This document shows, one piece after another, positions 1,922 to 24,687 of a stretch of DNA of 64,000 nt (position 1 is the stretch's first letter; the number at the start of each line of letters is the position of its first letter). The notes below the pieces were generated by a model that saw nothing but the letters and a program-made list of their open reading frames with translations, ran no database searches and was not told the origin of the DNA. The stretch is from contig NZ_CP025804.1 of assembly GCF_003352085.1 (NCBI RefSeq), forward strand, positions 2,170,001-2,234,000, given 5' to 3'. A program made the position numbers and the translations under genes. Origin of the DNA: Sulfitobacter sp. SK012. Lineage in GTDB: Bacteria; Pseudomonadota; Alphaproteobacteria; Rhodobacterales; Rhodobacteraceae.

Positions 1922-1925
1922 ACAC

Positions 1926-3260: not shown

Positions 3261-3280
3261 TCGCTGCGGGGTGCGGGGGG

Positions 3281-3580
3281 TTACCCTGCACCCAATTGAT
3301 AAAGCTGCAGGGGCGCGCCGAGGTCATCAGTCAGACAAACCCAGCGAGTTTGTGATGAAGGCAGATCGATAATAAGTTGGTTGATCTCGACGATCGGCAA
3401 GGTCGTGTTCACAACGCCAGAGGCATCGCCGGTCTGTTGGGTGACGGCCTGCACGCATTTGCGCCCGGCGCGCGCGTCGGCGCGTACCTGTGGATCTGAG
3501 TCAAATTCAGCGGGATCACAGGCGGAAAGGGCCGTCAGGGCCACACAAAGACCCAATACAGGGCGCAGAACAGATCGCAT
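3281..3580 (-). CDS. Small putative lipoprotein
   Basis: A 99-residue protein with a short charged N terminus, a hydrophobic stretch (LGLCVALTALSAC) and a lipobox LSAC with Cys at residue 20, so it is probably lipidated and anchored in the outer or inner membrane. The mature part contains two further Cys residues (RKCVQAV and RWVCLTDD) that could form a disulfide. No known domain is recognised. It is convergent with dctD, ending about 20 bp downstream of the dctD stop. A plausible AAGGAG ribosome site precedes the start at 3580. The function is unknown. Confidence 0.7.
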   Translation of the reverse strand: MRSVLRPVLGLCVALTALSACDPAEFDSDPQVRADARAGRKCVQAVTQQTGDASGVVNTTLPIVEINQLIIDLPSSQTRWVCLTDDLGAPLQLYQLGAG

Positions 3581-4146
3581 GTTGTCTCCTTCATCGTTAT
3601 TTTAGGGCGCTTTGCTTCAGGTGTTTTCCCAAAATCGGACGCCACATCTCCCAGTGTCATGGGTAATGGTAGCGGCAAATGGCCGCGCCCTCAATAATAT
3701 GTCAACGTCTGTTCCTGCACCTGATGGGCGTTTTGCGTCGATTGTGCCCACTTTGCCCATTGTCATTGCGCCCCCTGTCGACTTAACTAGAGGGATGGGT
3801 TGCATTGCGTCTTTTTGTTACGCGCGCCCGTTGACGAAATTCGCTGTTGCGCGCCGCCTGTATGGATGTGCCGGAACAGGCCGATTTGGCCGGAAACGGC
3901 TAACGAACCGCTGAAGTCCCAGACGGCAAACGCCGCGTAAGGCCCAGTATTTAATGGATATGAGTGGCTGAGGCCCTCATGTCGGAGAAGAAACGCGATG
4001 ACGCGCGCAACTGCAACAGGCACTCAAACGCTGGGCCCTCCGGGCCTTGCTTGCGCCGCGTCCACCATCGCCCTGACAAGACATACCCCGCATCGCTGTT
4101 CGCCCCCACCGGGCGAAAGGCGGTCGCGGCTGTGCAATATGGATTT
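3581..4146. other. Intergenic region and probable long leader of rne
   Basis: No gene is supported here. Short frames on both strands lack recognisable domains and good ribosome sites. The last part, about 3830-4146, is GC-rich with inverted segments such as GGCCGGAAACGGC, and it precedes rne. A long structured 5' leader is typical of rne, whose mRNA is autoregulated in enterobacteria. That role is inferred here, not shown. Confidence 0.4.
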
Positions 4147-6852
4147 ATGCCAAAGAAAATGCTTATCGATGCCACCCACGCGGAAGAAACCCGCGTCGTG
4201 GTTGTGGACGGAAACAAGGTTGAGGAATTCGACTTTGAATCCGAGAACAAACGCCAGCTTGCTGGCAACATATATCTCGCAAAGGTAACGCGCGTTGAGC
4301 CGTCCTTGCAGGCGGCTTTTGTAGATTACGGTGGCAACCGCCACGGTTTTCTCGCGTTCTCTGAAATCCACCCGGATTACTATCAGATACCCGTAGAGGA
4401 CCGCAAAGCGCTGCTGGAAGAAGAGCGCGCCTATGCCGAAGCGCAGGCCGCCAAGGATGATGAAGACATCAAGCCAAAACGCAGCCGGTCACGGTCGCGC
4501 AGCCGTGCCAAGCCCAAGGCTGAAGAGACCATTTCTGAGGACGCAACAGTGTCCACGGAAATCGAAGGCATGGAGACGCTTGATCTTAGTGATGACGATG
4601 ACGTCGAAGTTGATCAAAATGAGGCGTCTTCGCCCATGGAACGTGTGCCAGAGACACCTGTAGACACGCCTGAAGTCGAAGCATCCGAAGCTGAAGCTGA
4701 CACGACTGAAGCGGATGCGGATGACGAGAACGGCGATACGGACGATGCAGATGATGCGGGCTCTGATGCGACTGCCAAAGACGAGACCATCGAATCTGTC
4801 GCGGACGAAGACGACAGTGAAGACATCCGTCCGGTGCGCAAGCCTCGGCCACGTCGCTACAAGATCCAAGAAGTTATCAAGGTTCGCCAGATCCTGCTTG
4901 TGCAGGTCGTCAAAGAAGAACGCGGCAACAAGGGCGCTGCCCTTACGACATATCTGTCGCTGGCCGGTCGCTACTGCGTCTTGATGCCCAACACCGCACG
5001 TGGTGGTGGCATCAGCCGCAAGATTACCAACGCCCTGGACCGCAAGAAGCTTAAAGAGATCGCTCAAGAAATCGAAGTGCCGCAGGGTGCTGGCCTGATT
5101 GTACGTACGGCAGGTGCCAAGCGCACCAAAGCTGAGATCAAGCGCGACTATGAATATCTGCAACGCCTGTGGGAACAGATTCGCGAGCTGACGCTGAAAT
5201 CCATCGCGCCCGCCAAGATTTACGAAGAAGGCGATCTGATCAAACGCTCGATCCGCGATTTGTATAACCGCGACATCGACGAAGTGTTTGTCGAAGGCGA
5301 GCGCGGCTACCGCATCGCCAAAGACTTCATGAAGATGATCATGCCGAGCCATGCGAAAAACGTGAAATTGTACGGTGAAAACCTGCCATTGTTCGCGCGG
5401 TATCAGGTTGAATCGTACCTTTCGGGCATGTTCAACCCAACAGTTCAGCTGCCATCGGGCGGCTACATTGTGATCGACACAACCGAAGCGCTTGTCGCTG
5501 TGGACGTGAACTCTGGTCGTGCGACCAAAGAAGGCTCGATTGAGCAAACCGCGCTTAAGACCAACCTGGAGGCCGCCGCTGAGGTGGCACGCCAACTGCG
5601 TCTGCGCGATCTTGCGGGTCTGATTGTCATCGACTTTATCGACATGGATGAGCGTAAAAACAATGCCTCCGTCGAAAAGATGATGAAAGACAAGCTCAAG
5701 ACCGACCGTGCGCGCATTCAAGTCGGCCGCATTTCGGGCTTTGGTCTGATGGAAATGTCACGTCAGCGTCTACGTCCCGGCATGATCGAGGCTACGACCC
5801 AGCCGTGTCAGGCCTGCCACGGCACGGGCCTCATTCGTTCGGACGACAACCTTGCGCTGTCGATCATCCGCCAGATCGAAGAAGAAGGCACCCGTTGTCG
5901 TTCGCGCGAAGTGCTGGTGAAATGCCCTGTGGGTATCGCCAACTTCTTGATGAACCAAAAACGCGAGCACATTGCGCATATCGAAGGCCGCTATGGCCTG
6001 AGCGTGCGTATTGAAGGGGATCCGCATCTGATCAGCCCTGACTTCACCCTCGAAAAGTTCAAGACAGCGACCCGTGTTGTAGCTCCGGTTACGCATGTGG
6101 TGTCTGTGGACACGTCTTTGATGGATCAAATCGACGAGGATGATGCCAGCGTTGAAGAGGAAGACGCGCCTGCGCCACAGGGAGCTCAGACCTCTGAGCG
6201 TGTTGAAACTCCAGAAGGTGATGGCGAAGAAAAGCCCAAGCGCAAGCGTCGGCGTCGGCGTCGCAGCCGCGGTGGTCGCTCGGGCAATGGTGACGGTCAA
6301 AACAACGACGACCAGAATGGTGAAAACCAGAACGGTGAAGGTGGCGATGCGCCGTCTGAAACAGATGGTGAGCCTGCTTCTGAGCAGCCAAAGGCCGAAC
6401 CTGTAGAGGTAAATGTCGAAGGTGCGACTGAGGAGAAGCCCAAGCCAAAGACCCGCAGCCGTTCACGCAGCAAAAAGGTTGTAGCGCCGGTTGAAGCAGC
6501 AGCACCAGTTGCAGCCGAAGCGGCACCAGAGCCAGTGGTATCCGTTGAAAAAGCACCGGCCAAGCCAAAACGCACGCGGACCCGCAAGCCTAAGGCTGAA
6601 GCGGTTGCCGCAGAAATGGTCAGTGACGACATAGCAGTTGTGGCTGAGGCACCTGTGGTTGTTTCCGAGCCTGCGCCAGAACCTGTGCAAGCTGTGGAGC
6701 CTGAAAAAGCACCCGAGCCGGAAGTTGTGGTACCTGAGAAGGCACCGGAGCCCGTAATGGCAGCAGCTGCCCCTGAGCCAGCCCTAGAACCCGAAAAGAA
6801 GGCTGAGAAGCCCAAATCCAAGCGTAAGGGCTGGTGGTCACTGGGCGGCTGA
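4147..6852 (+). CDS. rne: Ribonuclease E
   Basis: The essential endoribonuclease that starts mRNA decay and processes rRNA and tRNA precursors. ATG 4147 (MPKKMLIDATHAEETRVVVV) is the conserved family start, giving 901 residues; an in-frame upstream extension of 61 residues does not look like protein. The S1 domain near the N terminus is split by a long acidic and Arg/Ser-rich insertion (about 95-235), as usual in alphaproteobacteria. The catalytic core has VAVDVNSG (about 451) and VIDFIDMDERKN (about 492), which hold the metal-binding Asp residues. The zinc-link is CQACHGTG (about 554). The C-terminal third alternates Arg-rich blocks with Ala/Pro/Glu repeats and is the disordered scaffold for degradosome partners. 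A hairpin terminator follows directly. Confidence 0.97.
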   Translation: MPKKMLIDATHAEETRVVVVDGNKVEEFDFESENKRQLAGNIYLAKVTRVEPSLQAAFVDYGGNRHGFLAFSEIHPDYYQIPVEDRKALLEEERAYAEAQAAKDDEDIKPKRSRSRSRSRAKPKAEETISEDATVSTEIEGMETLDLSDDDDVEVDQNEASSPMERVPETPVDTPEVEASEAEADTTEADADDENGDTDDADDAGSDATAKDETIESVADEDDSEDIRPVRKPRPRRYKIQEVIKVRQILLVQVVKEERGNKGAALTTYLSLAGRYCVLMPNTARGGGISRKITNALDRKKLKEIAQEIEVPQGAGLIVRTAGAKRTKAEIKRDYEYLQRLWEQIRELTLKSIAPAKIYEEGDLIKRSIRDLYNRDIDEVFVEGERGYRIAKDFMKMIMPSHAKNVKLYGENLPLFARYQVESYLSGMFNPTVQLPSGGYIVIDTTEALVAVDVNSGRATKEGSIEQTALKTNLEAAAEVARQLRLRDLAGLIVIDFIDMDERKNNASVEKMMKDKLKTDRARIQVGRISGFGLMEMSRQRLRPGMIEATTQPCQACHGTGLIRSDDNLALSIIRQIEEEGTRCRSREVLVKCPVGIANFLMNQKREHIAHIEGRYGLSVRIEGDPHLISPDFTLEKFKTATRVVAPVTHVVSVDTSLMDQIDEDDASVEEEDAPAPQGAQTSERVETPEGDGEEKPKRKRRRRRRSRGGRSGNGDGQNNDDQNGENQNGEGGDAPSETDGEPASEQPKAEPVEVNVEGATEEKPKPKTRSRSRSKKVVAPVEAAAPVAAEAAPEPVVSVEKAPAKPKRTRTRKPKAEAVAAEMVSDDIAVVAEAPVVVSEPAPEPVQAVEPEKAPEPEVVVPEKAPEPVMAAAAPEPALEPEKKAEKPKSKRKGWWSLGG

Positions 6853-6877
6853 TGCCGTTCAGATTGTGAAAGAAAAG

Positions 6878-6900
6878 CAGGCCTTCGGGCCTGTTTTTTT
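6878..6900 (+). terminator. Rho-independent terminator after rne
   Basis: CAGGCC (6878-6883), a TTCG tetraloop, GGCCTG (6888-6893), then seven T residues. The stop codon of the convergent tusA-like gene begins inside the T-tract at 6899-6901, so the element closes rne while the two genes end almost back to back. Confidence 0.9.
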
Positions 6901-7135
6901 ATGCGCGCGCGCCACCTTTGCGGATCAGATACGTCTGAATTGCGCCATTCTCGGATAGTTCGACCAAGGTGTGACCTGCCTCTGCGCAGAAATGCGGCAC
7001 ATCAACAAAGGCGGCCGGATCATCTGCCTGCATCCGCAATTGGTCGCCAGGTGCCAGCCCTTGCAGCCGTTTACGTGCTTTTAACACTGGAAGCGGGCAC
7101 AAAAGGCCAGTTGCATCAAGATCATAGGTATCCAT
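6899..7135 (-). CDS. TusA/SirA-family sulfur-carrier protein
   Basis: A 78-residue protein with the family signature LLCPLPVLKARK; Cys13 in the CPxP motif is the persulfide-carrying residue. TusA-type proteins pass sulfur from cysteine desulfurases to tRNA thiolation, molybdenum-cofactor or other acceptors. Length and the single domain match the family. Which acceptor is served cannot be told from the sequence. It is convergent with rne and divergent from ccdA about 90 bp away. The second Cys (HFCAEAG) is not part of the core motif. Confidence 0.88.
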   Translation of the reverse strand: MDTYDLDATGLLCPLPVLKARKRLQGLAPGDQLRMQADDPAAFVDVPHFCAEAGHTLVELSENGAIQTYLIRKGGARA

Positions 7136-7224
7136 ATCCGAGATGTAGGAGGGATATTACAGCCTGTCCACAGCCTTGTGATATTAAGGTGCGTGACGGG
7201 GCCCAACTGCGGGGCTATGTGTAC

Positions 7225-7980
7225 ATGATGTTTGGAATTGACCTCATCGACGCAAGCTTGCTGCCTGCCATGATCGTCGCGCTTGTTGCTGGCATCATTA
7301 GTTTTTTATCGCCCTGCGTGTTGCCGATTGTGCCGCCGTATCTGGCGTACATGAGTGGCGTCACTCTCAACGATATGTCATCGGTCAGCGCGGCGCGTAA
7401 ACGCGCGGTGGTCGCAGCATTTTGTTTCGTGCTTGGGTTGAGCACCGTGTTTATCCTTTTGGGATTTACCGCATCACTATTCGGAACCTTTTTCCTGCAA
7501 AACCAAGTGCTTCTGGCGCAAATTTCAGGTGTCGTCGTCATCATTTTCGGACTACATTTTTTAGGTGTCTTTCGCATTCCATTCCTCGACCAAGAGGCGC
7601 GGTTGGATGCCGGTGATAAGGGCGGTTCCAGCTTTGGTGCTTACGTTCTTGGCCTCGCTTTTGCCTTTGGCTGGACACCCTGTATCGGCCCACAATTGGG
7701 CGCGATCCTGTCGTTGGCGGCTAATGAAGCATCCGTTGCACGTGGCACGTTGTTGTTAGGCATTTACGCGGCGGGGCTGGGCATACCGTTTATGTTGGCG
7801 GCGATGTTCATCACCCGCGCGATGGGCGTGATGAACCGGCTCAAACGCCACATGAAGATGATTGAGCGGGTCATGGGCGCTCTTTTGGTGTTGGTCGGCT
7901 TGGCTTTGATTACAGGCGCGTTCACAACGCTCAGCTTCTGGCTACTCGAGACATTTCCAGCGCTTGCCGTGCTAGGATAA
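7225..7980 (+). CDS. ccdA: CcdA-type thiol-disulfide transmembrane transporter
   Basis: A protein of about 251 residues from ATG 7225 (ATG 7228 is equally possible); the longer upstream reading frame overlaps the divergent tusA and is not protein-like. It has six predicted membrane helices. The two functional Cys sit in helix-breaking motifs SFLSPCVLP (about Cys31) and GWTPCIGP (about Cys153), the pair that relays electrons from cytoplasmic thioredoxin to periplasmic apocytochrome c or other thiol proteins. It is the short CcdA form without the periplasmic DsbD domains. No cytochrome c maturation genes are visible nearby. The ribosome site is weak. Confidence 0.93.
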   Translation: MMFGIDLIDASLLPAMIVALVAGIISFLSPCVLPIVPPYLAYMSGVTLNDMSSVSAARKRAVVAAFCFVLGLSTVFILLGFTASLFGTFFLQNQVLLAQISGVVVIIFGLHFLGVFRIPFLDQEARLDAGDKGGSSFGAYVLGLAFAFGWTPCIGPQLGAILSLAANEASVARGTLLLGIYAAGLGIPFMLAAMFITRAMGVMNRLKRHMKMIERVMGALLVLVGLALITGAFTTLSFWLLETFPALAVLG

Positions 7981-8034
7981 CGTCTTACTCTTGCCGGAGA
8001 TCTACGCTAGCTTGACCGAAACGAGCAGGTCGCC

Positions 8035-9270
8035 ATGCGCAGCAGTCCTATCCCAACGGTCACCAATCGCCGGGTGTTTTATATCCCCGGCTATGACCCT
8101 ATTTCGCCGCGCCGTTACCGCGAGCTTTACCGCAAGGAAGGCACCTCGCAAGCCGAGATTTCGGGATATGAAATCGCACTAAACCCAAAGACCCCTGGTG
8201 GAAATTATGGATGGAACGTCAATGGTTTGATCGACGACGTTCGTGTAAGTTCTGACGTCGATGTGCTGATCTGGTCCGACATCGTGCGCGACAGTATGGA
8301 TACATCGATCCTTGCCACATACGTCCAATTGATCCGCACTGCTTGGGTCTATATCGGCTCTGGTACGCTGTGGCGTCTGATGAAGTTGCGCAAAGGCCCC
8401 GTGATTGCCGCGCTCTACCCGGTCGGAATGCTCTTGGTGCAGTTGTTGTTGGCGTATGCGGCTGCGGCAGGTGCGTTCTGGGGGATGAAGTCACTTTTGA
8501 TCCCGCTCATGGGGATTTTGGGGCATGTGATGGCGATGGTCGTTGGCATAGCGGTATTCGTTTTGCTGATGCGGTGGTTCAAAAAGAAAGACGGCCGGTT
8601 TTTTGCCTACTACCTCATGCATGACTACGCTTACGGCGCGGCCACAAAGGGGGCAAACCCGCCTGAACTCGAGGCCCGCATGGCGCAATTTTCGGATTCT
8701 ATCGCGGCGGCCTTTGAGACAGACGTGGATGAGGTGTTGGTTGTTGGCCATTCATCTGGCGCGCATTTGGGCGTGTCAGTTCTGGCTGATTTGATCCGTG
8801 CGGGCAGGGTGCCTGCTGATGGTCCGACCCTTTCGTTCTTAAGCTTGGGGCAAGTTGTGCCTATGGTGTCATTTCTGCCCAACGCCCACCGTTTACGGGC
8901 TGATCTGGCCTATCTGAGCGTTCAGGATGGCCTGACTTGGGTCGATGTTACGGCCCCCGGCGATGGTTGTGCTTTTGCGTTGTGTGATCCGGTTTGCGTG
9001 ACTGGTGTTGCCCCTCCGGACAAGCGTTGGCCGCTGGTTTTCTCTGCAGCTTTTTCACAAACGCTCACCGCGGCGCGGTGGAAGGAACTGCGATGGCGGT
9101 TTTTTCGGCTGCATTTCCAATATCTCTGCGCTTTTGACCGGCCGGGTGACTATGACTATTTCCAGATTACCGCAGGGCCGATTACGCTCGGGGATCGCTA
9201 CGCCGACCGCGCGCCTTCGAAGTCCCGGATTGAAACGCCGGTGAATAAATATCCGAGTATGGCACCATGA
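8035..9270 (+). CDS. Membrane-associated alpha/beta-hydrolase-like protein
   Basis: A 411-residue protein. The N terminus (RRVFYIPGYDPISPRRYREL) resembles the first strand and oxyanion-loop region of alpha/beta hydrolases. Two strongly hydrophobic helices at about residues 125-150 and 155-182 are inserted before the nucleophile elbow VGHSSG (Ser near 239). The C-terminal part holds possible acid and His residues but no sharp motif. It may act on a lipid at the inner membrane; the substrate is unknown. The stop overlaps the start of the P450 gene in an ATGA junction, implying translational coupling and a shared pathway. The conserved roseobacter hypothetical function is not known to me. Confidence 0.75.
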   Translation: MRSSPIPTVTNRRVFYIPGYDPISPRRYRELYRKEGTSQAEISGYEIALNPKTPGGNYGWNVNGLIDDVRVSSDVDVLIWSDIVRDSMDTSILATYVQLIRTAWVYIGSGTLWRLMKLRKGPVIAALYPVGMLLVQLLLAYAAAAGAFWGMKSLLIPLMGILGHVMAMVVGIAVFVLLMRWFKKKDGRFFAYYLMHDYAYGAATKGANPPELEARMAQFSDSIAAAFETDVDEVLVVGHSSGAHLGVSVLADLIRAGRVPADGPTLSFLSLGQVVPMVSFLPNAHRLRADLAYLSVQDGLTWVDVTAPGDGCAFALCDPVCVTGVAPPDKRWPLVFSAAFSQTLTAARWKELRWRFFRLHFQYLCAFDRPGDYDYFQITAGPITLGDRYADRAPSKSRIETPVNKYPSMAP

Positions 9271-10631
9271 CAGGGCCCGCAATCCTTCCGCCCAAACCCC
9301 CTAGCAGGGCAGATAAAGTGTCGCTTTGGCACTATGCTAAGCTGTTTCGCAGAGATCTGCTGTCCGCACAGCCTGCGCGGCTTTACCGTGCTTGGATGGC
9401 GGAATTCAAAACGCCGTTCTTTCGCAGTTATTTGGTCAATCAACCTGATCTGATCAAAGAGGTGCTGCGCGGGCGGCCAGATGATTTCCCTAAATCCGAC
9501 CGGATTAGTGAAGGGTTGCGCCCGCTCTTGGGCAATTCGGTGTTTTTGACCAATGGTGAGACGTGGAAGCGCCAGCGCCGCATTATCGACCCGGCCTTTG
9601 AAGGAGGTCGGCTGCGCGAAACATTTCCTGCCATGTGGGACGCTGCAGAGGCCGCCGCGACCCGGCTGAACGCAAATGTAGGCCGCGATATCGAGATTGA
9701 GAGCGAGACAAGCCATGTTGCCGCTGACGTTATATTTCGCACGTTGTTTTCGATCCCCATCGAACATGAGACGGCGCGCGAAGTATTTGACGAATTTCGT
9801 ACCTATCAACGCAGCCAACCGATCCTGAATTTGGGCGCGCTGATCCCTCTGCCGCGTTGGATGCCAAGGATGTTTCGGCGCGACACACGGGCGAGTGCGG
9901 CGTTGATCCGGCAGTTGATCACCAAGCTAACGTCTGCGCGGCGTGAAGCGATCAATGATGGGTCTGCGCCAGATGATCTAGCCACCAAGATCATGACAAC
10001 GCCAGATCCCGAGACCGGAGCGGTGTTCAGCACCGATGAGATGGTCGACCAAGTGGCGATCTTTTTCCTTGCTGGGCATGAAACCGGCGCATCGGCGTTG
10101 TCTTGGGCGCTGTATCTGATGGCGCTTTTCCCTGACTGGCAGGACCGTCTATCTGAAGAGGCGCAGGCGCTGGATCATTGTGATTTTTCAGTCATGTCAA
10201 AGCTCAAGATCAGCCGTGATGTCTTTCGTGAAACTTTGCGGCTTTATCCGCCTGTCCCGATGATGGTGCGTGAAAACGCCTGCCCGGAGCAGTTTCGCGA
10301 CCGCACAGTCAAGCGTGGCAGCCAGATCGTGCTCAGCCCTTGGCACCTGCACCGGCACACGCGGCTTTGGGATAACCCTGATGGATTTGATCCTGCGCGG
10401 TGGGCCACTGAGAACGGCCAGAAATGCCAGCGCGAAGCGTTTATTCCCTTCAGTGCGGGCGCACGTGTCTGTCCGGGTGCCGGGTTTGCGATGATCGAAG
10501 GGCCGCTTATCCTATCGCGGATATTGCGGGATCTTCGGGCGGTACCTGTCGCGACACGTACGCCTGTACCGGTGGCGCATCTGACGGTACGCTCTGAGAA
10601 CGGTATCTGGCTTCGGCTGGAGCGGCGCTAG
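9267..10631 (+). CDS. Cytochrome P450
   Basis: A 454-residue soluble-type P450. The I-helix motif is FFLAGHETGAS (about 264-274). The K-helix ExxR lies in FRETLRLYPP (about 321). The heme-binding loop is FSAGARVCPG with the thiolate Cys near 402. The N terminus lacks a membrane anchor. The best resemblance is to the CYP4/CYP102-like branch that oxidises fatty chains or terpenoids, but the substrate cannot be deduced. No ferredoxin or reductase gene is adjacent, so electrons must come from elsewhere. It overlaps the upstream hydrolase by 4 bp, and the two probably act on the same compound. Confidence 0.95.
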   Translation: MTGPAILPPKPPSRADKVSLWHYAKLFRRDLLSAQPARLYRAWMAEFKTPFFRSYLVNQPDLIKEVLRGRPDDFPKSDRISEGLRPLLGNSVFLTNGETWKRQRRIIDPAFEGGRLRETFPAMWDAAEAAATRLNANVGRDIEIESETSHVAADVIFRTLFSIPIEHETAREVFDEFRTYQRSQPILNLGALIPLPRWMPRMFRRDTRASAALIRQLITKLTSARREAINDGSAPDDLATKIMTTPDPETGAVFSTDEMVDQVAIFFLAGHETGASALSWALYLMALFPDWQDRLSEEAQALDHCDFSVMSKLKISRDVFRETLRLYPPVPMMVRENACPEQFRDRTVKRGSQIVLSPWHLHRHTRLWDNPDGFDPARWATENGQKCQREAFIPFSAGARVCPGAGFAMIEGPLILSRILRDLRAVPVATRTPVPVAHLTVRSENGIWLRLERR

Positions 10632-10706
10632 GTTCTATCATCACAACGCGGAATGTTCTAAGAACCGCACAACGGAATCACGATGAAACGAAGGAATGAT
10701 TTTCTA

Positions 10707-11600
10707 ATGTCCAATACCGCAGCACAACGTACACAAATCCATACCGGCGACGGTTTTATTGCGGCATTGGATCAATCCGGCGGATCAACTCCCAAAGCAC
10801 TGAGCCTTTATGGCGTAGAGCCTGCGGATTATTCTGGTGATGTTGAGATGTTTCAGGCGATGCATGACATGCGTGCCCGCATTATCCTCGCAGATGATTT
10901 TACGTCCGCCAAAGTTCTTGGCGCGATCTTGTTTGAACGCACCATGAACGAGACGATAAATGGTACACCGGTGGCCGAACTGATGTGGTCTAAACGTGGT
11001 GTGGTGCCGTTTCTCAAGATCGACAAAGGGCTCGAAGATGAGGCGCAGGGCGTTCAGCTTCTCAAGCCCATTCCGGGCCTTGAAGCGCTGCTGGATGAGG
11101 CCAAAAGCAAAGGCATCTTTGGGACCAAAGAGCGCTCCGTCATTCATGCAGCTAATGAGGCCGGGATCGCTGCGATTGTGGCCCAACAGTTTGACCTAGC
11201 CAAAGCCGTTGCCAAAGCTGGCTTAGTCCCGATTATCGAGCCAGAGGTGACGATCACCTCTGATACAAAGGCCGATGCCGAGGGTATTTTAGTTTCCGAA
11301 ATTATCAAACACCTCAACGGCTTAGATGATGTCGTTGAGGTGATGGTCAAGCTGACAATACCTGAGAATGCGGGCATCTACGATGTGTTGGCCGACCATC
11401 CTCGGGTGATGCGCGTTGTGGCGCTATCGGGTGGGTATTCAACACAGGACGCCTGCCACAAGCTGACGCAAAATCCCAAGATGATCGCAAGCTTTAGCCG
11501 TGCGCTGACAGAAGGGCTGAACGTCAAAATGACGGATGTTGAGTTCAACACTGCACTTGGCCAAAACATCGACAAGATTTACAGCGCGTCGGTGGCCTAA
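10707..11600 (+). CDS. Class I fructose-bisphosphate aldolase
   Basis: About 297 residues from ATG 10707, preferred over the ATG at 10683 because AAGGA lies 11-15 bases upstream and the family starts near this point. FIAALDQSGGSTPKAL is the conserved N-terminal block, and KIDKGLE and EPEVTI match the barrel strands of the Schiff-base class I enzyme. It splits fructose-1,6-bisphosphate into two triose phosphates, or runs in reverse for gluconeogenesis, and needs no metal. Its stop overlaps by three bases the stop of the minus-strand RHH gene. Confidence 0.92.
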   Translation: MSNTAAQRTQIHTGDGFIAALDQSGGSTPKALSLYGVEPADYSGDVEMFQAMHDMRARIILADDFTSAKVLGAILFERTMNETINGTPVAELMWSKRGVVPFLKIDKGLEDEAQGVQLLKPIPGLEALLDEAKSKGIFGTKERSVIHAANEAGIAAIVAQQFDLAKAVAKAGLVPIIEPEVTITSDTKADAEGILVSEIIKHLNGLDDVVEVMVKLTIPENAGIYDVLADHPRVMRVVALSGGYSTQDACHKLTQNPKMIASFSRALTEGLNVKMTDVEFNTALGQNIDKIYSASVA

Positions 11601-17810: not shown

Positions 17811-18539
17811 CTAGCGTTCAGCCCGGGCGGCAAAAACGCTGCGGGCGAGGCTTTGGGTTTCGTCTTCAAGCGCGCTGAGGCCCTGCGCGACCTTGTCGCC
17901 GGCGTGTTCTTCAGCCGCATCTGCGATGGCCACATGAAATGCCACGATGGCGCTGCGGTCGCGGGCGGTAAAGGTGATCATGTTCATGAGGGGCTGCATT
18001 GCCTCAACCGCACCGGCGAGTTGGTAAGACAGAACCGGATTGCCAGCGGCATCAACGAGGGCGCGGTGGAATGTCACGTCAGAGGCGCAAAATGCTTCGT
18101 CCGTCAGGCCGGGCTGTTGCTGGCGGTGAATTTCGGCACGCATGGTGGCCAAATGGTCCGCGCTGCGGCGCGCAGCGGACAGGGGCGCACAGGCCCTTTC
18201 AAGCGCATAGCGCGCTTCGCAGGCGGTCCCAAAACTCACCGCATTCATCGAAAGGAGCAACGTCGAAGTAGTGACTTGCTGGGCATAAGCTTCTTCAAAG
18301 CTGAGCCTGTTCACGAATGCCCCACCAGACGCGCCGCGTTGCGTGCGGATAAGTGATTGCGCAGCCAAACGTTTGAGCGCCTCGCGGACCGTGGGGCGCG
18401 AGACGGCAAAATGATCGGCAAGCTCTGCCTCAGACGGCAAGCGTGCATCGACAATCAAACGGCCTTCAACGATCTCATCGCGTATCGCACTGGCGATCTG
18501 GGCCGACAGATCAGCGGGGCTTTGTGGGTCAATTTTCAT
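17811..18539 (-). CDS. GntR/FadR-family regulator (FCD domain), candidate regulator of the dmdA operon
   Basis: 242 residues from ATG 18539 (MKIDPQSPADLSAQI). The winged-helix GntR domain (8-75) reads LPSEAELADHFAVSRPTVREALKRL. The FCD ligand domain (about 90-225) has DVTFHRALVDAAGN with the Asp and His of the usual metal or effector site, and further His residues toward the C terminus. FadR-type regulators respond to small carboxylates or acyl compounds. The gene is divergent from the DUF2182-DUF1326-DinB-dmdA-acuI run, with two palindromic sites between them. I infer that it represses or activates that run. The effector is unknown; a DMSP-derived acid is a reasonable guess. Confidence 0.85.
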   Translation of the reverse strand: MKIDPQSPADLSAQIASAIRDEIVEGRLIVDARLPSEAELADHFAVSRPTVREALKRLAAQSLIRTQRGASGGAFVNRLSFEEAYAQQVTTSTLLLSMNAVSFGTACEARYALERACAPLSAARRSADHLATMRAEIHRQQQPGLTDEAFCASDVTFHRALVDAAGNPVLSYQLAGAVEAMQPLMNMITFTARDRSAIVAFHVAIADAAEEHAGDKVAQGLSALEDETQSLARSVFAARAER

Positions 18540-18584
18540 ATGTCTTACATTTAATGTTTGGCAAATATCTAAATGTCTGACATT
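18540..18584. promoter_or_regulatory. Twin GntR-type operators
   Basis: Two inverted repeats lie between the divergent regulator and DUF2182 genes: ATGTCTTACAT (18540-18550) and AATGTCTGACATT (18572-18584, a perfect palindrome around one central base). Both share TGTC(T)nACA, close to the TnGTnnnACnA pattern bound by FadR-subfamily regulators. Their centres are about 33 bp apart, roughly three helical turns. The first touches the regulator's own start codon region, which suggests autoregulation. Confidence 0.7.
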
Positions 18585-18615
18585 AAAAAAGCAAGAACCG
18601 TTCGCGAGGCCTCTC

Positions 18616-19404
18616 ATGCCACATCTTTTACGCTCCACATTCTGGTTAGGCTTTTTCGGCCTGATCCTCTTTGCGTGGGTCATGATGGCGCAGATGAGCG
18701 GGCAAATGGGCCTTGATTTGCTGGGTCGCCCAGATGCAATGGGCCGTGCGATGGCAGCGATGGATCCGCACATGGATATGGACATGCCGATGGCGCGATT
18801 CGGGCCGTTGGCAGGAATGTGGGCGCTGATGATGGCGGCGATGATGCTGCCAACGCTGGTGCCGACTTTGCGCGCCTATGAAGACCTGATGGACTCCGCA
18901 AACGGGACACGTGTTGGTTGGCTGGGTGTGGTCACAGGGTATTTCGCGGTTTGGGTCGTATTTGCGATGGCTCTGGCTGGTCTGCAACTGGCGCTGCTGT
19001 TTGGCGGTGTCATCGATATGCTGGGCATTGCGCGGTCGCGCTGGTTTGCTGTGGCATTGCTTTTGGCCGTTGGGCTTTTTCAATTCACCCGCGCCAAGGA
19101 GCTGTGCCACGGGGTTTGTCACGCGCCTGGGATGTATTTCTTGGGCCATTGGCGCACTGGATTTGGTGGCGGGCTGCGCATGGGTTTGGGCCTTGGGGCC
19201 TTTTGTGTCGGCTGCTGCTGGGGCTTTATGGCGTTGGGATTTGCAGGCGGGGTGATGAACCTTGCTTGGATGGGTCTTGCGACACTGTTTATGGTGTTGG
19301 AAAAACTACCACAAATTGGACATTACGTAACAAAACCAATGGGTTTTTCCCTGATCCTCGGCGCTTTCGTCGTGGCAGGCTGGCCCATGCTAACGGGAGG
19401 ATAA
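18616..19404 (+). CDS. DUF2182 integral membrane protein, metal-ligand rich
   Basis: 262 residues with about six to seven membrane helices. It matches DUF2182, described as a predicted metal-binding membrane family. Visible candidate ligands are a Met/His/Asp-rich loop DPHMDMDMPM (about 49-59), ELCHGVCHAPG (about 162-172) and CVGCCWG (about 197-203). The Met-rich loop recalls copper-handling proteins. It is the first gene of an apparent operon, two bases before DUF1326. Transport or insertion of a metal is an inference. No biochemical role is established to my knowledge. Confidence 0.82.
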   Translation: MPHLLRSTFWLGFFGLILFAWVMMAQMSGQMGLDLLGRPDAMGRAMAAMDPHMDMDMPMARFGPLAGMWALMMAAMMLPTLVPTLRAYEDLMDSANGTRVGWLGVVTGYFAVWVVFAMALAGLQLALLFGGVIDMLGIARSRWFAVALLLAVGLFQFTRAKELCHGVCHAPGMYFLGHWRTGFGGGLRMGLGLGAFCVGCCWGFMALGFAGGVMNLAWMGLATLFMVLEKLPQIGHYVTKPMGFSLILGAFVVAGWPMLTGG

Positions 19405-19405
19405 G

Positions 19406-20113
19406 ATGGCTACGAACAAGCGACCGGACGCGGATAAGCTGCCGATTTCACAGCGGATTGACAGCCGCATGCCAAACCCAAAACGCCGCGAGGCGACGCC
19501 GACGAACTGGGCGATCAAAGGGGAACTATTCCTCAATTGTTCGTGCACAGTGTTCTGTCCCTGCGTTGTGTCCTTGGGCGCGCACCCTCCCACAGAGGGG
19601 CATTGCCACGCGTGGATGGCGATCGCCATTGATGAAGGCCATTATGAGGGTGAAGACCTTGCCGGGCTTAATGTCGGGCTGTTGGTCGATATTCCGGGCC
19701 GTATGGGCGAGGGAAATTGGAAAGTTGCGGCCTACGTGGACGAACGCGCCACCGGCAAAGCCTATAACGGCATCCTGCAGATATTCTCAGGTGCTGCTGG
19801 GGGCACGACGGGCCTGTTTACGATGCTGGTCTCAGAGATCATCGGGGCAGAACGTGCACCCGTAGAAATCGTATGCGATGGCCGTAAACGCTCCATCCAG
19901 ATTGGTCGCAAAATCCAAGGCGAGATCGAGATGATCGCTGGTAAGTCGGAAGACCACCCTGTGATGGTCAGCAATTCGAAATACTGGATGGGTCCTGACA
20001 TCATTGCAGCAAAGGGCCTCAAAAGCCGGGTGCGCGATTATGGCCGCATTTGGGATTTCGGCGGAAAATCAGCTGAGATTTGCCCGATTGACTGGAAAGG
20101 TCCTGTTGCGTGA
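19406..20113 (+). CDS. DUF1326 family protein with Cys cluster
   Basis: A 235-residue cytoplasmic protein, translated from GGAGG just upstream of ATG 19406. The conserved DUF1326 core starts at about residue 32 (NWAIKGELFLNCSCTVFCPC), with four Cys in NCSCTVFCPC and HCHAW a little later, which together look like a metal site. GRMGEGNWKVAAYVDERA and the following beta-rich part fit the family. DUF1326 and DUF2182 are often neighbours, which suggests one metal-related process. It overlaps the DinB gene by four bases (GTGA). The biochemical function is unknown. Confidence 0.82.
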   Translation: MATNKRPDADKLPISQRIDSRMPNPKRREATPTNWAIKGELFLNCSCTVFCPCVVSLGAHPPTEGHCHAWMAIAIDEGHYEGEDLAGLNVGLLVDIPGRMGEGNWKVAAYVDERATGKAYNGILQIFSGAAGGTTGLFTMLVSEIIGAERAPVEIVCDGRKRSIQIGRKIQGEIEMIAGKSEDHPVMVSNSKYWMGPDIIAAKGLKSRVRDYGRIWDFGGKSAEICPIDWKGPVA

Positions 20114-20619
20114 TCGACAAGCGTTATGTCAGCATGATGGCGCGCTATAATGCTTGGCAAAACAGTCAATTACGCGACCTTGTTAAAGTCGCAGATGCGG
20201 CGGAGTTGCATAAAGATCGTGGGGCTTTTTTCGGATCGATCTTTGGCACTCTGAACCATCTTCTGTGGGGCGATACAATCTGGATGAGCCGCTGGTGCAG
20301 TGATGTGCCAGCGCCAGATGTGGGCATTCCCGACAGCATTGCCTTCACGCCCGATCTGGACGTGTGGGATACAAAAAGATTTCGGCTTGATGGGCGCATG
20401 CGCATTTGGTCGGAAACCTTGCGAAATGTTGATCTGAGCGGCGACCTATCGTGGCATTCAGACGCCTTGGCGCGTGATGTGACCCGGCCCATGGCCGTTT
20501 GTGTGGCGCATATGTTTAACCATCAGACCCACCACCGCGGTCAGCTGCATGCCATGCTGTCCCAAGCGGGAATGACCCCGCCGGTGAGCGATCTCTTTAT
20601 GATGTCGGAGGACGTATAA
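20110..20619 (+). CDS. DinB-family four-helix protein
   Basis: 169 residues starting from GTG 20110, which overlaps the DUF1326 stop. It has a four-helix-bundle DinB fold. The metal-binding His residues are visible in GTLNHLLWGD (about 57) and HMFNHQTHHRGQ (about 137-146), the usual three-His nickel/zinc site. Many DinB-type proteins are thiol-dependent transferases or isomerases. Its stop TAA shares one base with the dmdA ATG, so it is coupled to DMSP demethylation. A role with a thiol cofactor or C1 unit is possible but speculative. Confidence 0.82.
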   Translation: MIDKRYVSMMARYNAWQNSQLRDLVKVADAAELHKDRGAFFGSIFGTLNHLLWGDTIWMSRWCSDVPAPDVGIPDSIAFTPDLDVWDTKRFRLDGRMRIWSETLRNVDLSGDLSWHSDALARDVTRPMAVCVAHMFNHQTHHRGQLHAMLSQAGMTPPVSDLFMMSEDV

Positions 20620-21722
20620 TGTCGTTGATTTCTCCTTCACGCCGGGTGCGGCGTACTCCTTTTTCTGATGGCGTCGAAGCCGCCGGTGTTAAGGCATACA
20701 CGGTCTATAACCGGATGCTGCTGGCTTCCGTCTTTCGAAGTCCAGAAGAAGACTACCACCACCTCAAGTCTGCTGTGCAGGTTTGGGACGTGTCTTGTGA
20801 ACGCCAAGTTGAGTTGCGCGGCCCCGATGCTGCACGACTGATGCAAATGCTGACCCCGCGTGACCTACGCGGGATGCTGCCGGGGCGGTGTTTCTATGTG
20901 CCCATCGTTGATGAGACGGGCGGCATGTTGAACGATCCTGTTGCAGTAAAGTTGGCTGAAGACCGGTGGTGGATTTCCATCGCAGACTCGGATTTATTGT
21001 TGTGGGTCAAAGGGATCGCCAATGGTTACCGGCTGGATGTGCTGGTAGATGAACCTGACGTGAGCCCACTTGCCGTTCAAGGCCCTCAGGCCGAAGATCT
21101 GGTGGCCGCAATCTTCGGCGATGGCGTTCGCGACATCAAATTCTTCCGCTTTGGCATGTTTGATTTCCAGGGACGGTCCTTGGCCGTGGCAAGATCTGGA
21201 TATTCCAAGCAGGGTGGTTTTGAGATTTATGTCGAAGGGTCCGATTTGGCGATGCCGCTGTGGCATGCGCTGATGGAAGCGGGCAAATCGAAGGATGTGC
21301 GCGCGGGCTGTCCAAACATGATTGAGCGGATCGAAGGCGGGTTGCTGAGTTATGGCAATGACATGACCGACGATAACACACCCCATGAATGCGGCCTGGG
21401 TCGGTTTTGCGACACCCAAACTGCTATCGGGTGTATTGGCCGCGATGCGCTGTTGCGCGTGGCCAAGGAAGGCCCTGTTCAGCAAATCCGCGCGATTGAG
21501 ATTGCTGGCGGCAAAGTGCCAGGTTCTGATCGGGCGTGGTCAATCAAGGCAGGTGACAAGCGTGTGGGGCAGGTGACCTCGGCGGCATGGTCGCCTGACT
21601 TTGGGACGAATGTGGCGATGGGCATGGTGCGTATGACCCACTGGGATCCCGGGACGCACCTGCAAGTCGAAACACCGGACGGCTTGCGCGATGCAATAGT
21701 GCGCGAGGACTTTTGGCTTTAA
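20619..21722 (+). CDS. dmdA: Dimethylsulfoniopropionate demethylase DmdA
   Basis: 367 residues with GGAGG seven bases before ATG 20619. It moves a methyl group from DMSP to tetrahydrofolate, giving methylmercaptopropionate. It belongs to the GcvT-like aminomethyltransferase fold. The N terminus (SPSRRVRRTPFSDGVEAAGV), AVQVWDVSCERQV, GGMLNDPVAVKLA, SPLAVQGPQAEDL, ARSGYSKQGGFEIYVEG and RIEGGLLSYGNDMT resemble the Ruegeria pomeroyi DmdA as I recall it, more than ordinary GcvT. The acuI gene following, and a BCCT carrier beyond, strengthen the call. It is co-transcribed with DinB, DUF1326 and DUF2182. Position in an operon with metal-type DUFs is unusual. Confidence 0.9.
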   Translation: MSLISPSRRVRRTPFSDGVEAAGVKAYTVYNRMLLASVFRSPEEDYHHLKSAVQVWDVSCERQVELRGPDAARLMQMLTPRDLRGMLPGRCFYVPIVDETGGMLNDPVAVKLAEDRWWISIADSDLLLWVKGIANGYRLDVLVDEPDVSPLAVQGPQAEDLVAAIFGDGVRDIKFFRFGMFDFQGRSLAVARSGYSKQGGFEIYVEGSDLAMPLWHALMEAGKSKDVRAGCPNMIERIEGGLLSYGNDMTDDNTPHECGLGRFCDTQTAIGCIGRDALLRVAKEGPVQQIRAIEIAGGKVPGSDRAWSIKAGDKRVGQVTSAAWSPDFGTNVAMGMVRMTHWDPGTHLQVETPDGLRDAIVREDFWL

Positions 21723-21800
21723 CGCCACGCGCAATGTCGGGGCCTTCGACTGAATTTTTTGAATAAAGAGCAGGGCGAAATGCCCGGAATGGAGACAAAT

Positions 21801-22784
21801 ATGTTTGATGCATTGGTGGTGACCAAGGATGATGAGGGCAAAACCCATGCGGCGGTGACGCAGATCAGTGAAGATCAGCTTCCTGCAGGTGATGTGACGG
21901 TTGCGGTTGAGTATTCGACGGTAAATTACAAAGACGGTTTGTGCATTGGGCCAGGCGGCGGGTTGGTTCGGAATTACCCGCATATTCCGGGGATCGATTT
22001 TGCAGGGACGGTCGAGGCCTCTGATGATGCGCGCTACAAGCCAGGCGACAAGGTCGTGTTGACCGGCTGGCGTGTTGGCGAAGCGCATTGGGGCGGATAT
22101 TCCCAAAAAGCGCGCGTTAAGGCTGACTGGTTGGTGCCGCTGCCCGCAGGTCTGGATGCACGTCAGGCTATGGCTGTGGGTACGGCCGGCTTTACCGCGA
22201 TGCTGTCGGTGATGGCGCTAGAGGACCACGGCATCAAGCAAGGTCCGGTTCTGGTTTGTGGTGCAGCGGGCGGCGTTGGATCGGTTGCAGTAGCTCTGTT
22301 GGCAGCGTTGGGCCACGATGTTGCTGCTGTGACGGGGCGGCCTGAAACGGCGGATTACCTGAAATCTTTGGGAGCCACACAAATTGTTGCCCGCGAAGAG
22401 ATCAACGAAACCATCAAACGGCCGCTTGAAGCCGAAGCGTGGGGCGGTTGTGTTGACGCAGTGGGCGGCGAGATGCTGGCGCGGGTCCTTGGCCAAATGG
22501 AATACGGTGCTTCTGTTGCCGCCGTTGGTCTTGCTGGTGGTGCCAATTTGCCCGCGACCGTGATCCCATTCCTGCTGCGCGGTGTGAACCTTTTGGGGAT
22601 CGACAGCGTGATGCAGCCTTACGAAAACCGTGTCCGCGCTTGGGGACGTATCGCTAAGGACCTGCCGATGGACAAACTCGAGGCGATGGTGCAGCCCGCT
22701 ACATTGTCGGATTTGCCGCAGCTGGGCCGAGATATCCTAAAAGGTCAGATCAAGGGCCGCGTGGTCGTAGACGTTAACGCCTGA
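21801..22784 (+). CDS. acuI: Acryloyl-CoA reductase AcuI (MDR family)
   Basis: 327 residues from ATG 21801 with GGAG ten bases upstream; an in-frame upstream start at 21759 adds a non-conserved tail. It is a zinc-free medium-chain dehydrogenase with YSTVNYKDGL, HIPGIDFAGTVE, LTGWRVGEAHWGGY and the NADPH-binding GAAGGVGSVA (about 152). AcuI reduces acryloyl-CoA to propionyl-CoA, which removes the toxic product of DMSP cleavage, and it is the typical partner of dmdA in roseobacters. The 78-bp gap to dmdA lacks an obvious terminator, so it is likely the last gene of the operon. Confidence 0.92.
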   Translation: MFDALVVTKDDEGKTHAAVTQISEDQLPAGDVTVAVEYSTVNYKDGLCIGPGGGLVRNYPHIPGIDFAGTVEASDDARYKPGDKVVLTGWRVGEAHWGGYSQKARVKADWLVPLPAGLDARQAMAVGTAGFTAMLSVMALEDHGIKQGPVLVCGAAGGVGSVAVALLAALGHDVAAVTGRPETADYLKSLGATQIVAREEINETIKRPLEAEAWGGCVDAVGGEMLARVLGQMEYGASVAAVGLAGGANLPATVIPFLLRGVNLLGIDSVMQPYENRVRAWGRIAKDLPMDKLEAMVQPATLSDLPQLGRDILKGQIKGRVVVDVNA

Positions 22785-22801
22785 AGCGGTTGAATCTTTG
22801 A

Positions 22802-22837
22802 AACCGTCCGTGTCCCCGTGGCATGGGCGGTTTTTTT
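22802..22837 (+). terminator. Rho-independent terminator after acuI
   Basis: AACCGTCC (22802-22809) pairs with GGGCGGTT (22825-22832) across a 15-base loop, followed by a T run to 22837. It separates the dmdA-acuI operon from the BCCT gene. Confidence 0.8.
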
Positions 22838-22968
22838 ATGCCGGCATCCCAATAATGAGCCGTGATCAGGTGCGACAAAATGTTCCAGTCGCGCTGGGTT
22901 TTTCCTTGTTTGGTGTAGGAAACAAGTTAGGATTAGCGACTAATAAAAAACAATAGGGACAAAAATTA

Positions 22969-24687
22969 ATGGCACTTCAACCCCCTCTATCTGATCTACC
23001 GATCAAGACAGCGGATGTGGGCTTCTATCGAGGCTTTAGCATTAACGTCACTGTAATCAGTAAGGTCATAATCTCCGTGCTTGTGGTCTGGTGCATCTTT
23101 TGGCCCACGCAGGCTGGTGGTGTTCTTGGCAACTGGAACAGCGTTATTCTTGCAAATTTTGCGGCTTGGTACATCTGGGTCGTTGCGGCATTTGTGATCG
23201 TGTGTCTTGGCCTTGCGATCTGGCCGACTGCGGGGCGTCTTAACCTTGGTGGCGAAGGCGACAAGCCCGAGTTTTCCAACTTCTCTTGGTTCTCGATGAT
23301 GTTTGGTGCCGGTATCGGTGTCGGCATGCTGACCTTTGCTGTGGCCGAACCGGTCGCACATTTTGGGTCCAACCCTGAAACCATCCAAGGCATGACGACG
23401 GGTGGCACAGCGGACAACGTTCGCATGGCCTACAAATGGTCGTTCCTGCACTGGGGACTGGGCGCTTGGGCGTGTTATGCGATCGCAGGCCTGTCGCTTG
23501 CGTTCTTTAGCTATCGTCGTGGTTTGCCACTGACAATCCGCTCGGGTTTGACGCCGTTGTTTGGCAAAGCTCTTTCGGGTCCTTTGGGTCACTTGATCGA
23601 CATCGTTGCGGTTGTGGCTACCATTCTGGGCGTGGCGCAAACGCTTGGCTTTGGTGTTGAGCAGTTCTTGGCTGGCTTGACCCGTATTGGCTTTGGTGGC
23701 CTCGTTTCTGGCGCTGATGCAGTGAATGCAGCAGGCGAAAGCATTGCAGGCAATTCTACTACATTCGGTATCATCATTGCTCTTGTGATAATCATGGGTG
23801 CCTCCACTCTGTCGGCGCTGTCTGGTGTCGGCAAAGGCATCAAATGGCTGTCAAACATCAACATGGTGTTGTCGATTATCTTGCTGAGCTTTTTCATCAT
23901 CTTTGGGGCGACATGGTTCGGCGCGCAGGCGATGTTCATTGGTATCTGGGATTATCTGATCGCATTGCCATCCATGAGCTTTAACGTCTTCAAATCCGAT
24001 GGCGTTGCAGACTCCGAAGCGTTCAAATTGGCGCAGTGGCAGGGCTGGTGGCCCGTGTTTTACTGGGCTTGGTGGATCGCTTTTGCACCGTTCGTTGGCC
24101 TGTTCCTTGCACGCATCTCGCGTGGGCGGACAATCCGTGAATTCGTGTTGGGTGCAATGCTCGTGCCCGCATTGATGTGCTTTGTTTGGTTCTCATGGGC
24201 CGGTGGCACCGCCATTGACCTTGAACTGAACGGTGGCGCTGATGGTGCGATCTTTGGTGTGGCCAATAGCGATAAAATCTTTGCCATGACCAACTACATG
24301 CTTGCACCGATTTCTGAGGCGCTTTCATGGGGCATGACGTTGCTGATCGTTGTCTTGTTGATGACTTTCCTTGTGACGTCTGCTGACTCTGCGGTTTTGA
24401 TCGTTAACACGATCAACGCGGCGGGTGATGAAGGTCCAAAGGCACGTCCGCATATCCTGTTCTGGGGTGCTGCATTGGCGCTAGTGGTCGGTGGGCTGCT
24501 AATGTCAGGTGGTACAGGTGCCATTCAGACCGCGATGGTGATCGGCGCGCTGCCGTTCTCCTTTGTGATGGTGTTGATGGCAATATCGTTGATCAAAGCG
24601 ATCTTTAACGACGGTCGTCGTGAAGCCGCTGGTGTCACATCTGTGACGGTTGATGATGCCGCGGCAGCAGCGATGCCTGCTGAATAA
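22969..24687 (+). CDS. BCCT-family transporter (betaine/DMSP-type)
   Basis: 572 residues with twelve predicted helices. GAGIGVGMLTFAVAEP (about 113) is the glycine-rich TM3 segment and FYWAWWIAFAPFVG (about 366) is the TM8 aromatic box. BCCT carriers import betaine, choline, carnitine or DMSP with sodium or protons. In the box the third Trp of the betaine-type WWxxW is replaced by Phe (WWIAF), which may alter substrate choice. The position directly after dmdA-acuI suggests DMSP uptake, but this is inference. The gene has its own AGGGA site. Confidence 0.88.
   Translation: MALQPPLSDLPIKTADVGFYRGFSINVTVISKVIISVLVVWCIFWPTQAGGVLGNWNSVILANFAAWYIWVVAAFVIVCLGLAIWPTAGRLNLGGEGDKPEFSNFSWFSMMFGAGIGVGMLTFAVAEPVAHFGSNPETIQGMTTGGTADNVRMAYKWSFLHWGLGAWACYAIAGLSLAFFSYRRGLPLTIRSGLTPLFGKALSGPLGHLIDIVAVVATILGVAQTLGFGVEQFLAGLTRIGFGGLVSGADAVNAAGESIAGNSTTFGIIIALVIIMGASTLSALSGVGKGIKWLSNINMVLSIILLSFFIIFGATWFGAQAMFIGIWDYLIALPSMSFNVFKSDGVADSEAFKLAQWQGWWPVFYWAWWIAFAPFVGLFLARISRGRTIREFVLGAMLVPALMCFVWFSWAGGTAIDLELNGGADGAIFGVANSDKIFAMTNYMLAPISEALSWGMTLLIVVLLMTFLVTSADSAVLIVNTINAAGDEGPKARPHILFWGAALALVVGGLLMSGGTGAIQTAMVIGALPFSFVMVLMAISLIKAIFNDGRREAAGVTSVTVDDAAAAAMPAE

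Follow-up and report, generated by a model that had tools for sequence, protein, structure and literature searches.

A gene cluster for the use of dimethylsulfoniopropionate (DMSP) lies in the window analysed here, a 64,000-nt stretch of Sulfitobacter sp. SK012 (Rhodobacteraceae; contig NZ_CP025804.1, positions 2,170,001 to 2,234,000). Demethylation of DMSP yields methanethiol and its cleavage yields acrylate. By demethylating DMSP and using acrylate, roseobacters direct the course of much of the organic sulfur in the ocean. Open frames and profile searches give a gntR gene and, divergent from it, the order PpoB2-DUF1326-DinB-dmdA-acuI, after which comes a gene for a BCCT carrier (Table 1). 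An initial annotation had described dmdA as part of a DUF2182-DUF1326-DinB operon beside a divergent GntR gene, with acuI behind it and the carrier beyond the acuI terminator; all seven genes were found as placed and are now named by profiles, and a terminator-like stem does follow acuI. The junctions it had pointed out are there as well: a GTGA overlap joins DUF1326 to DinB at 20110 and a TAATG overlap joins DinB to dmdA at 20617-20621, while PpoB2 and DUF1326 are 1 bp apart and dmdA and acuI 78 bp. As such, the arrangement is that of a putative operon under GntR control, present in marine Alphaproteobacteria and devoted to DMSP and acrylate. Within the family, the operon-type pair of PpoB2 and DUF1326, two little-characterised genes of metal or thiol type, sits in the dmdA or acuI cluster of most of the sampled genomes that bear DmdA (83/106).

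Table 1. Features of the dmdA locus (window positions).
Feature	Position	Strand	Evidence
GntR/FCD (FadR-type) regulator gene, divergent	17811..18539	-	PF00392 64.6 bits, PF07729 62.8 bits
Operator-like palindrome 1, ATGTCTTACAT, adjoining the gntR start codon	18540..18550		sequence
Operator-like palindrome 2, ATGTCTGACAT, 33 bp after palindrome 1, ahead of the PpoB2 start	18573..18583		sequence
PpoB2-family (DUF2182) membrane protein, type A (CHGVCH)	18616..19404	+	PF09948 187.9 bits, cut-off 28.7
DUF1326 protein, five invariant Cys	19406..20113	+	PF07040 177.3 bits, cut-off 25
DinB-family protein	20110..20619	+	PF05163 76.5 bits
dmdA, DMSP demethylase	20619..21722	+	NF009133 675 bits, cut-off 410; 3tfh E 9e-103
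Weak terminator-like hairpin, dmdA-acuI gap	21736..21750	+	consensus match only
acuI, acryloyl-CoA reductase	21801..22784	+	TIGR02823 449 bits, cut-off 297
Terminator-like stem and T run 3' of acuI	22815..22827	+	consensus match only
BCCT carrier, facultative neighbour	22969..24687	+	PF02028 491 bits

The window's DmdA exceeds the curated equivalog cut-off, the GcvT models staying under their own, and AcuI passes its subfamily cut-off while falling narrowly short of the stricter equivalog NF051456 (423.7 bits, cut-off 440). The hairpin between the two genes may be a site of attenuation, possibly lowering acuI relative to dmdA. A dmdA-acuI operon and its induction are already known: in Ruegeria pomeroyi DSS-3 dmdA directly precedes acuI, as it does here, both DMSP and acrylate induce the operon, and in 24 of 26 dmdA-bearing Roseobacters acuI comes straight after dmdA (PMC3338564). 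PpoB2, DUF1326 and DinB go unmentioned in the accessible part of that account. In R. pomeroyi a promoter was located to a 350-bp fragment whose end is inside dmdA (PMC3338564), or to the 222 bp that precede the gene (PMC7181598). A promoter of dmdA's own, named beside the initial annotation as something that would speak against it, thus exists in that species, whereas the window's dmdA overlaps DinB and is, by its arrangement, an internal gene. Promoter constructs as short as these would lack the pair. No paper on an association of the pair with a DMSP operon was found in the open literature, subscription papers and supplements lying outside the scope of that search.

How general is this arrangement? 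As dmdA loci we took the best 80 of 583 stretches encoding relatives, that is, the nearest ones, some of which end at contig ends. Both PpoB2 and DUF1326 lie within 6 kb in 68 of them and both are absent from the other 12; neither is ever present singly (0/80), so in dmdA loci the pair is evidently kept whole. The exact order, with gntR divergent from PpoB2-DUF1326-dmdA-acuI and DinB left out of the count, occurs in 63, which disposes of the possibility, raised together with the initial annotation, that the order might not be conserved elsewhere. A GntR relative above 200 bits is within 6 kb in 69 of the 80 loci, and a BCCT gene in 31, making the latter no fixed member of the predicted operon. 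In a wider sample of the family (248 genomes of 247 genera, DmdA places counted at 350 bits or more), DUF1326 lies within 5 kb of 81 of 116 DmdA places, in every case upstream of dmdA and in the same orientation. In one of the named loci, L053, DUF1326 follows dmdA. The linkage in the wider sample goes with the DmdA score, being found at 64 of 75 places of at least 600 bits and at 1 of 18 places of 350-450 bits. The pair is retained across about 80 genera, and as far as sequence comparison can tell its association with DMSP genes is well supported. Since the grouping is so widely kept, the two proteins probably help the cell to cope with the breakdown products of DMSP.

The gap between gntR and PpoB2 indeed holds the twin TGTCnnACA sites that had been noticed there. 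The exact pattern ATGTCWKACAT occurs at eight places in the 5.18-Mb genome of the window, against one for the reversed-pattern control, and only in this gap does it form a close twin; of the remaining six places, the gene calls put five inside open reading frames (ORFs) and one on an ORF's first codon. Near the start of gntR, TGTCNNACA is found in 66 of 82 loci, compared with 4.6% of random windows of 500 bp, and in two copies in 24 of the 82. The palindrome is therefore more frequent near gntR than chance would give, an exact match being absent there in 16 of the 82 loci (e.g. L001, L003, L114 and L131). Moreover, TGTCNNACA also occurs in units that lack dmdA (L091, L118) or the pair (L121, L136). 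A conserved palindrome in the divergent gap fits an autoregulated divergon of the GntR/FadR type, and we regard it as the predicted operator, through which GntR would hold down both the operon and its own expression, with DMSP or acrylate(-CoA) lifting the repression.

PpoB2 and DUF1326 also go together away from dmdA. In the family, 67 of 148 DUF1326 places are unlinked to DmdA; 40 of these were inspected, and 39 have PpoB2 next to DUF1326. The same was seen in 18 of 20 inspected loci outside the family at the level of the phylum, 16 of them ordered DUF1326-PpoB2, and in 13 of 20 at the level of the class, one of the 13 with PpoB2 on the opposite strand. The pairing is thus usual, not obligatory. 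The window's own genome has, besides the pair in the operon, a stand-alone one in the opposite gene order and of divergent type (G000:C1:1365950-1366489, locus L100). The stand-alone pairs share no neighbour: a scan of 136 flanking proteins met none of the Pfam families more than three times.

This last result suits an explanation in which a house-keeping pair came to stand behind the promoter by history and its link to DMSP has no function. That gntR-dmdA-acuI units without the pair exist (L121, L131 and L070) points the same way, as does the R. pomeroyi promoter directly before dmdA (350 or 222 bp; PMC3338564, PMC7181598). We hold such a neutral rider to be unlikely but a serious rival, for besides the retention of the pair in about 80 genera, its two members appear to have been replaced together, in place and repeatedly. 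Two subtypes of the pair exist in dmdA operons, CHGVCH/NCSC (A) and CLxxCR-type/NCNC (B), and they match in 67 of 68 loci (44 A/A, 23 B/B, and one mixed, L050). On the DmdA tree the type changes 11 times for PpoB2 and 10 times for DUF1326; in the four well-supported independent pairs, a number that cannot reach significance, an average of 3.8 show both changing alike, and none shows the opposite. In Marivita and in Shimia, operons of one kind carry either an A or a B pair, as if a cassette had been replaced.

A history without function would also have to account for the DUF1326 proteins of the operons forming a separate clade with its own gene order. A tree of 110 rows places all 47 operon rows in a single clade of 59 (SH-aLRT 100, long stem), 57 of which have the order PpoB2-DUF1326. 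Seven members of this clade come from outside the family, and four of these have dmdA, a methanethiol-oxidase-family gene or a DddP-like/M24 gene close by. DMSP-type neighbours are kept in three other families. In L174 the neighbours are dmdA and an acyl-CoA ligase of the PRK08162 group; in L162 a ligase of the same kind and a gene for an SBP56 protein, the methanethiol oxidase family (PF05694 731 bits; 155 bits against the narrower MtoX model, cut-off 650); in L159 an acyl-CoA ligase and a DddP-like M24 protein (398 bits, cut-off 600). L175, which shares its genus code with L159, is likewise near an M24 protein, the ligase region being outside the scan. No DMSP-type neighbour was seen at L145, which lies by ADH-type and ABC genes, or at L163, by an alpha/beta hydrolase and a racemase and with PpoB2 undetected; L177 has the opposite gene order, its neighbours being outside the scan. 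The L159 region (1603-9674), from another alphaproteobacterial family, encodes on one strand a response regulator, a histidine kinase, PpoB2, DUF1326, the acyl-CoA ligase, a glyoxalase-like protein and the DddP-like M24 protein.

What the two proteins might do is suggested by their residues. Both had been credited with clusters of Met, Cys and His that look like metal sites, and this stands for the cysteines: Cys45, 47, 51, 53 and 67 of DUF1326 have a conservation of 1.00 in 155 rows of the whole family, and Cys164/168/197/200/201 of PpoB2, together with Met68/72/76/77/205, reach 0.97-1.00 over 143 rows. The Met cluster is that of PpoB2; in DUF1326, His60, Met100 and Met195 are near-invariant in operon rows only (0.97, 1.00 and 1.00, against 0.19, 0.43 and 0.13 in stand-alone rows). 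Lys161, Glu229 and Lys230 of PpoB2 are conserved at 0.97 or above over the 143 rows. With these Cys sets, and Met in PpoB2, metal or thiol handling is the natural reading. A search of solved structures gave no sequence relative at E 1 or better for either protein. The PpoB2 model (pLDDT 84) is mainly helical and has no fold match, while that of DUF1326 (pLDDT 80; weak at 1-27 and at 55-60, inside the Cys region) appears to resemble acetoacetate decarboxylases and MppR. Acetoacetate decarboxylases use a catalytic Schiff-base lysine. DUF1326 differs from this superfamily (ADC, MppR, Swit_4259) by an identity of about 10%, by its five cysteines and by the lack of a lysine conserved across the DUF1326 family, the best reaching 0.66 of 155 rows. 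As for the link of these genes to DMSP demethylation, for which the initial annotation knew no explanation, a partial answer comes from Marinomonas mediterranea, where a protein of the PpoB2 family (COG5486/PF09948) encoded in the ppoB1-ppoB2 operon, the one relative studied by experiment, hands copper to tyrosinase (PMC2855505). Unlike that operon, the window's operon, and its genome, have no tyrosinase, and DUF1326 is added as a partner.

The reading that we favour, tentatively, is that PpoB2 and DUF1326 form a cassette for handling copper or thiols that was recruited into an operon controlled by DMSP and acrylate. Here the membrane protein PpoB2 would use its Cys/Met set to take up or pass on Cu(I), and DUF1326 with its five Cys would be its partner and not a decarboxylase. 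Use of DMSP yields methanethiol, a thiol that binds copper, and acrylate, which reacts with thiols, and under this load the pair would keep copper available and rightly delivered, serving a copper-dependent methanethiol oxidase where one is present and respiratory copper enzymes elsewhere. In its more far-reaching form, which we consider doubtful, PpoB2 and the distinct DUF1326 clade with its reversed gene order would be a two-protein delivery system for metal (copper), induced by DMSP or acrylate and specialised for organosulfur catabolism, that protects or loads copper enzymes while methanethiol is produced, DUF1326 then being a soluble metallochaperone of a new class, built on an acetoacetate-decarboxylase-like fold. 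If functional, the pair would tie the copper or thiol status of the cell to the fate of DMSP, and DUF1326 would gain its first physiological setting.

Several observations weigh against the copper/thiol cassette. Tyrosinase, the only known client of PpoB2, is missing from the window's genome and operon and occurs in 2 of 40 operon-pair genomes (and in 0 of 40 genomes without DUF1326), so the client would have to be a different one. The cysteines could bind Zn or Fe-S or do redox chemistry, copper binding being a prediction, and the Cys loop is a region of low confidence in the DUF1326 model. DUF1326 was found without a detected PpoB2 in 7 of 20 class-level, 2 of 20 phylum-level and 1 of 40 family loci, in L162 PpoB2 amounts to no more than a short frame close to a transposase gene, and the operon pair is absent from 23 of the 106 DmdA genomes. 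To this may be added the lack of a shared neighbour among stand-alone pairs, noted above, and that transcription and induction of the operon in the window's genome are what we infer. The methanethiol oxidase MtoX, furthermore, often comes with a copper chaperone of its own, SCO1/SenC (PMC5739008), and pair and MtoX are independent among the 106 DmdA genomes (odds ratio 1.0, p 1, relatedness ignored). Over all 248 genomes the odds ratio is 4.7, relatedness again ignored, as expected from the common tie of both to DmdA.

These MtoX counts also bear on the more specific idea that the pair is dedicated to loading MtoX with copper, which we think quite improbable. MtoX does require copper (PMC5739008), and its gene is found near the operon at three loci: directly behind gntR and divergent from the dmdA operon in L187 (G043, 8613-10862), behind a gntR gene that some 3 kb and another ORF separate from the operon in L189 (G240, 3070-5301), and directly behind dmdA in L188 (G066, 5950-8604); the SBP56 gene near the pair in L162 may be counted with these. 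In the family genomes MtoX lies within 6 kb of DmdA three times, against 0.26 expected, and within 6 kb of DUF1326 twice, against 0.27 (P 0.03). However, the genome of L188 is without any DUF1326 match, and there is no co-occurrence beyond that with DmdA, MtoX being absent from 36 of the 83 DmdA genomes with the pair and from 10 of the 23 without it. For these counts an MtoX call needed a best piece of at least 230 bits, which drops 7 of 83 matching genomes (G023, G031, G037, G075, G184, G201, G219), and seven operon-pair genomes beyond the listed AcuI matches were added by hand, six of them seen among the 40 inspected loci and G060 by a locus cut by a contig end. MtoX as a general client is thus unsupported by presence and absence among DmdA genomes, and this independence favours a general role in copper or thiol keeping over the loading of one enzyme. 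The predicted operon of the window would resemble the mtoX-SCO1/senC-mauG operon (PMC5739008) as a DMSP-pathway operon with a copper chaperone; it differs in the family of that chaperone and in that mtoX is within 6 kb of DmdA in only three family genomes.

Partners other than dmdA broaden the picture. Counts at acuI rest on 150 listed places, so that acuI-linked numbers are lower bounds: within 5 kb of these AcuI matches, both DmdA and DUF1326 occur at least 67 times, DUF1326 alone at least 18, DmdA alone at least 6, and neither at least 59 (Fisher odds ratio for the association of DmdA with DUF1326 36.6, ignoring relatedness). Among the 40 inspected DUF1326 loci unlinked to DmdA, 19 have acuI within a few kb; in 17 of these it follows the pair in the same orientation, with BCCT beyond in eight, and in L107 and L117 it is divergent from the pair. 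As the pair heads acuI units without dmdA, and dmdA-acuI exists without the pair, either can be absent from a similar acuI unit. Beyond the family, 19 class-level genomes have a DmdA-type match of at least 350 bits; in one of them (G710, L174) the pair stands directly before dmdA. That the pair serves DmdA only was rejected on these grounds. The earlier suggestion that metal or thiol handling is coupled here to methyl transfer keeps its first half, while the special tie to methyl transfer finds no support in them.

The company of acuI also speaks for a chemistry of electrophiles and acyl-CoA, in which DUF1326 and DinB would trap, conjugate or convert acrylate or acryloyl-CoA, PpoB2 would be a membrane partner for redox or export, and metal would be secondary. 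Acyl-CoA is indeed a recurring theme: a crotonyl-CoA carboxylase/reductase follows PpoB2-DUF1326 in the acuI slot in L098 (173-2839) and L109 (5150-7857), and an acyl-CoA ligase is next to the pair or one gene on in L159, L162 and L174. Acrylate is the co-inducer of dmdA-acuI (PMC3338564), and in DUF1326, with its decarboxylase-like predicted fold, Lys169 (window 19910-19912) has a conservation of 0.93 among operon rows, compared with 0.13 among stand-alone rows, and is shared by all 25 operon-type rows of A2; in this clade DUF1326 may yet be an enzyme. On the other side, the PpoB2 family has its copper precedent and conserved Met set, no lysine is conserved over the whole DUF1326 family, and the generic pair occurs in many bacteria without an acrylate context. 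We therefore consider this explanation improbable as well, and a rival to be taken seriously.

DinB, finally, would act beside the copper/thiol cassette as a metal-dependent helper in thiol chemistry. The DinB fold carries a three-His metal site and is shared with thiol S-transferases, and His50, His138 and His142 are conserved at 1.00, 0.97 and 0.97 over 72 rows. A DinB relative above 100 bits is found in 55 of the 80 dmdA loci, by which it is an optional member of the putative operon. In L008 and L014, where the unit reads GntR-DinB-dmdA-acuI without PpoB2-DUF1326, DinB stays when the pair is missing.

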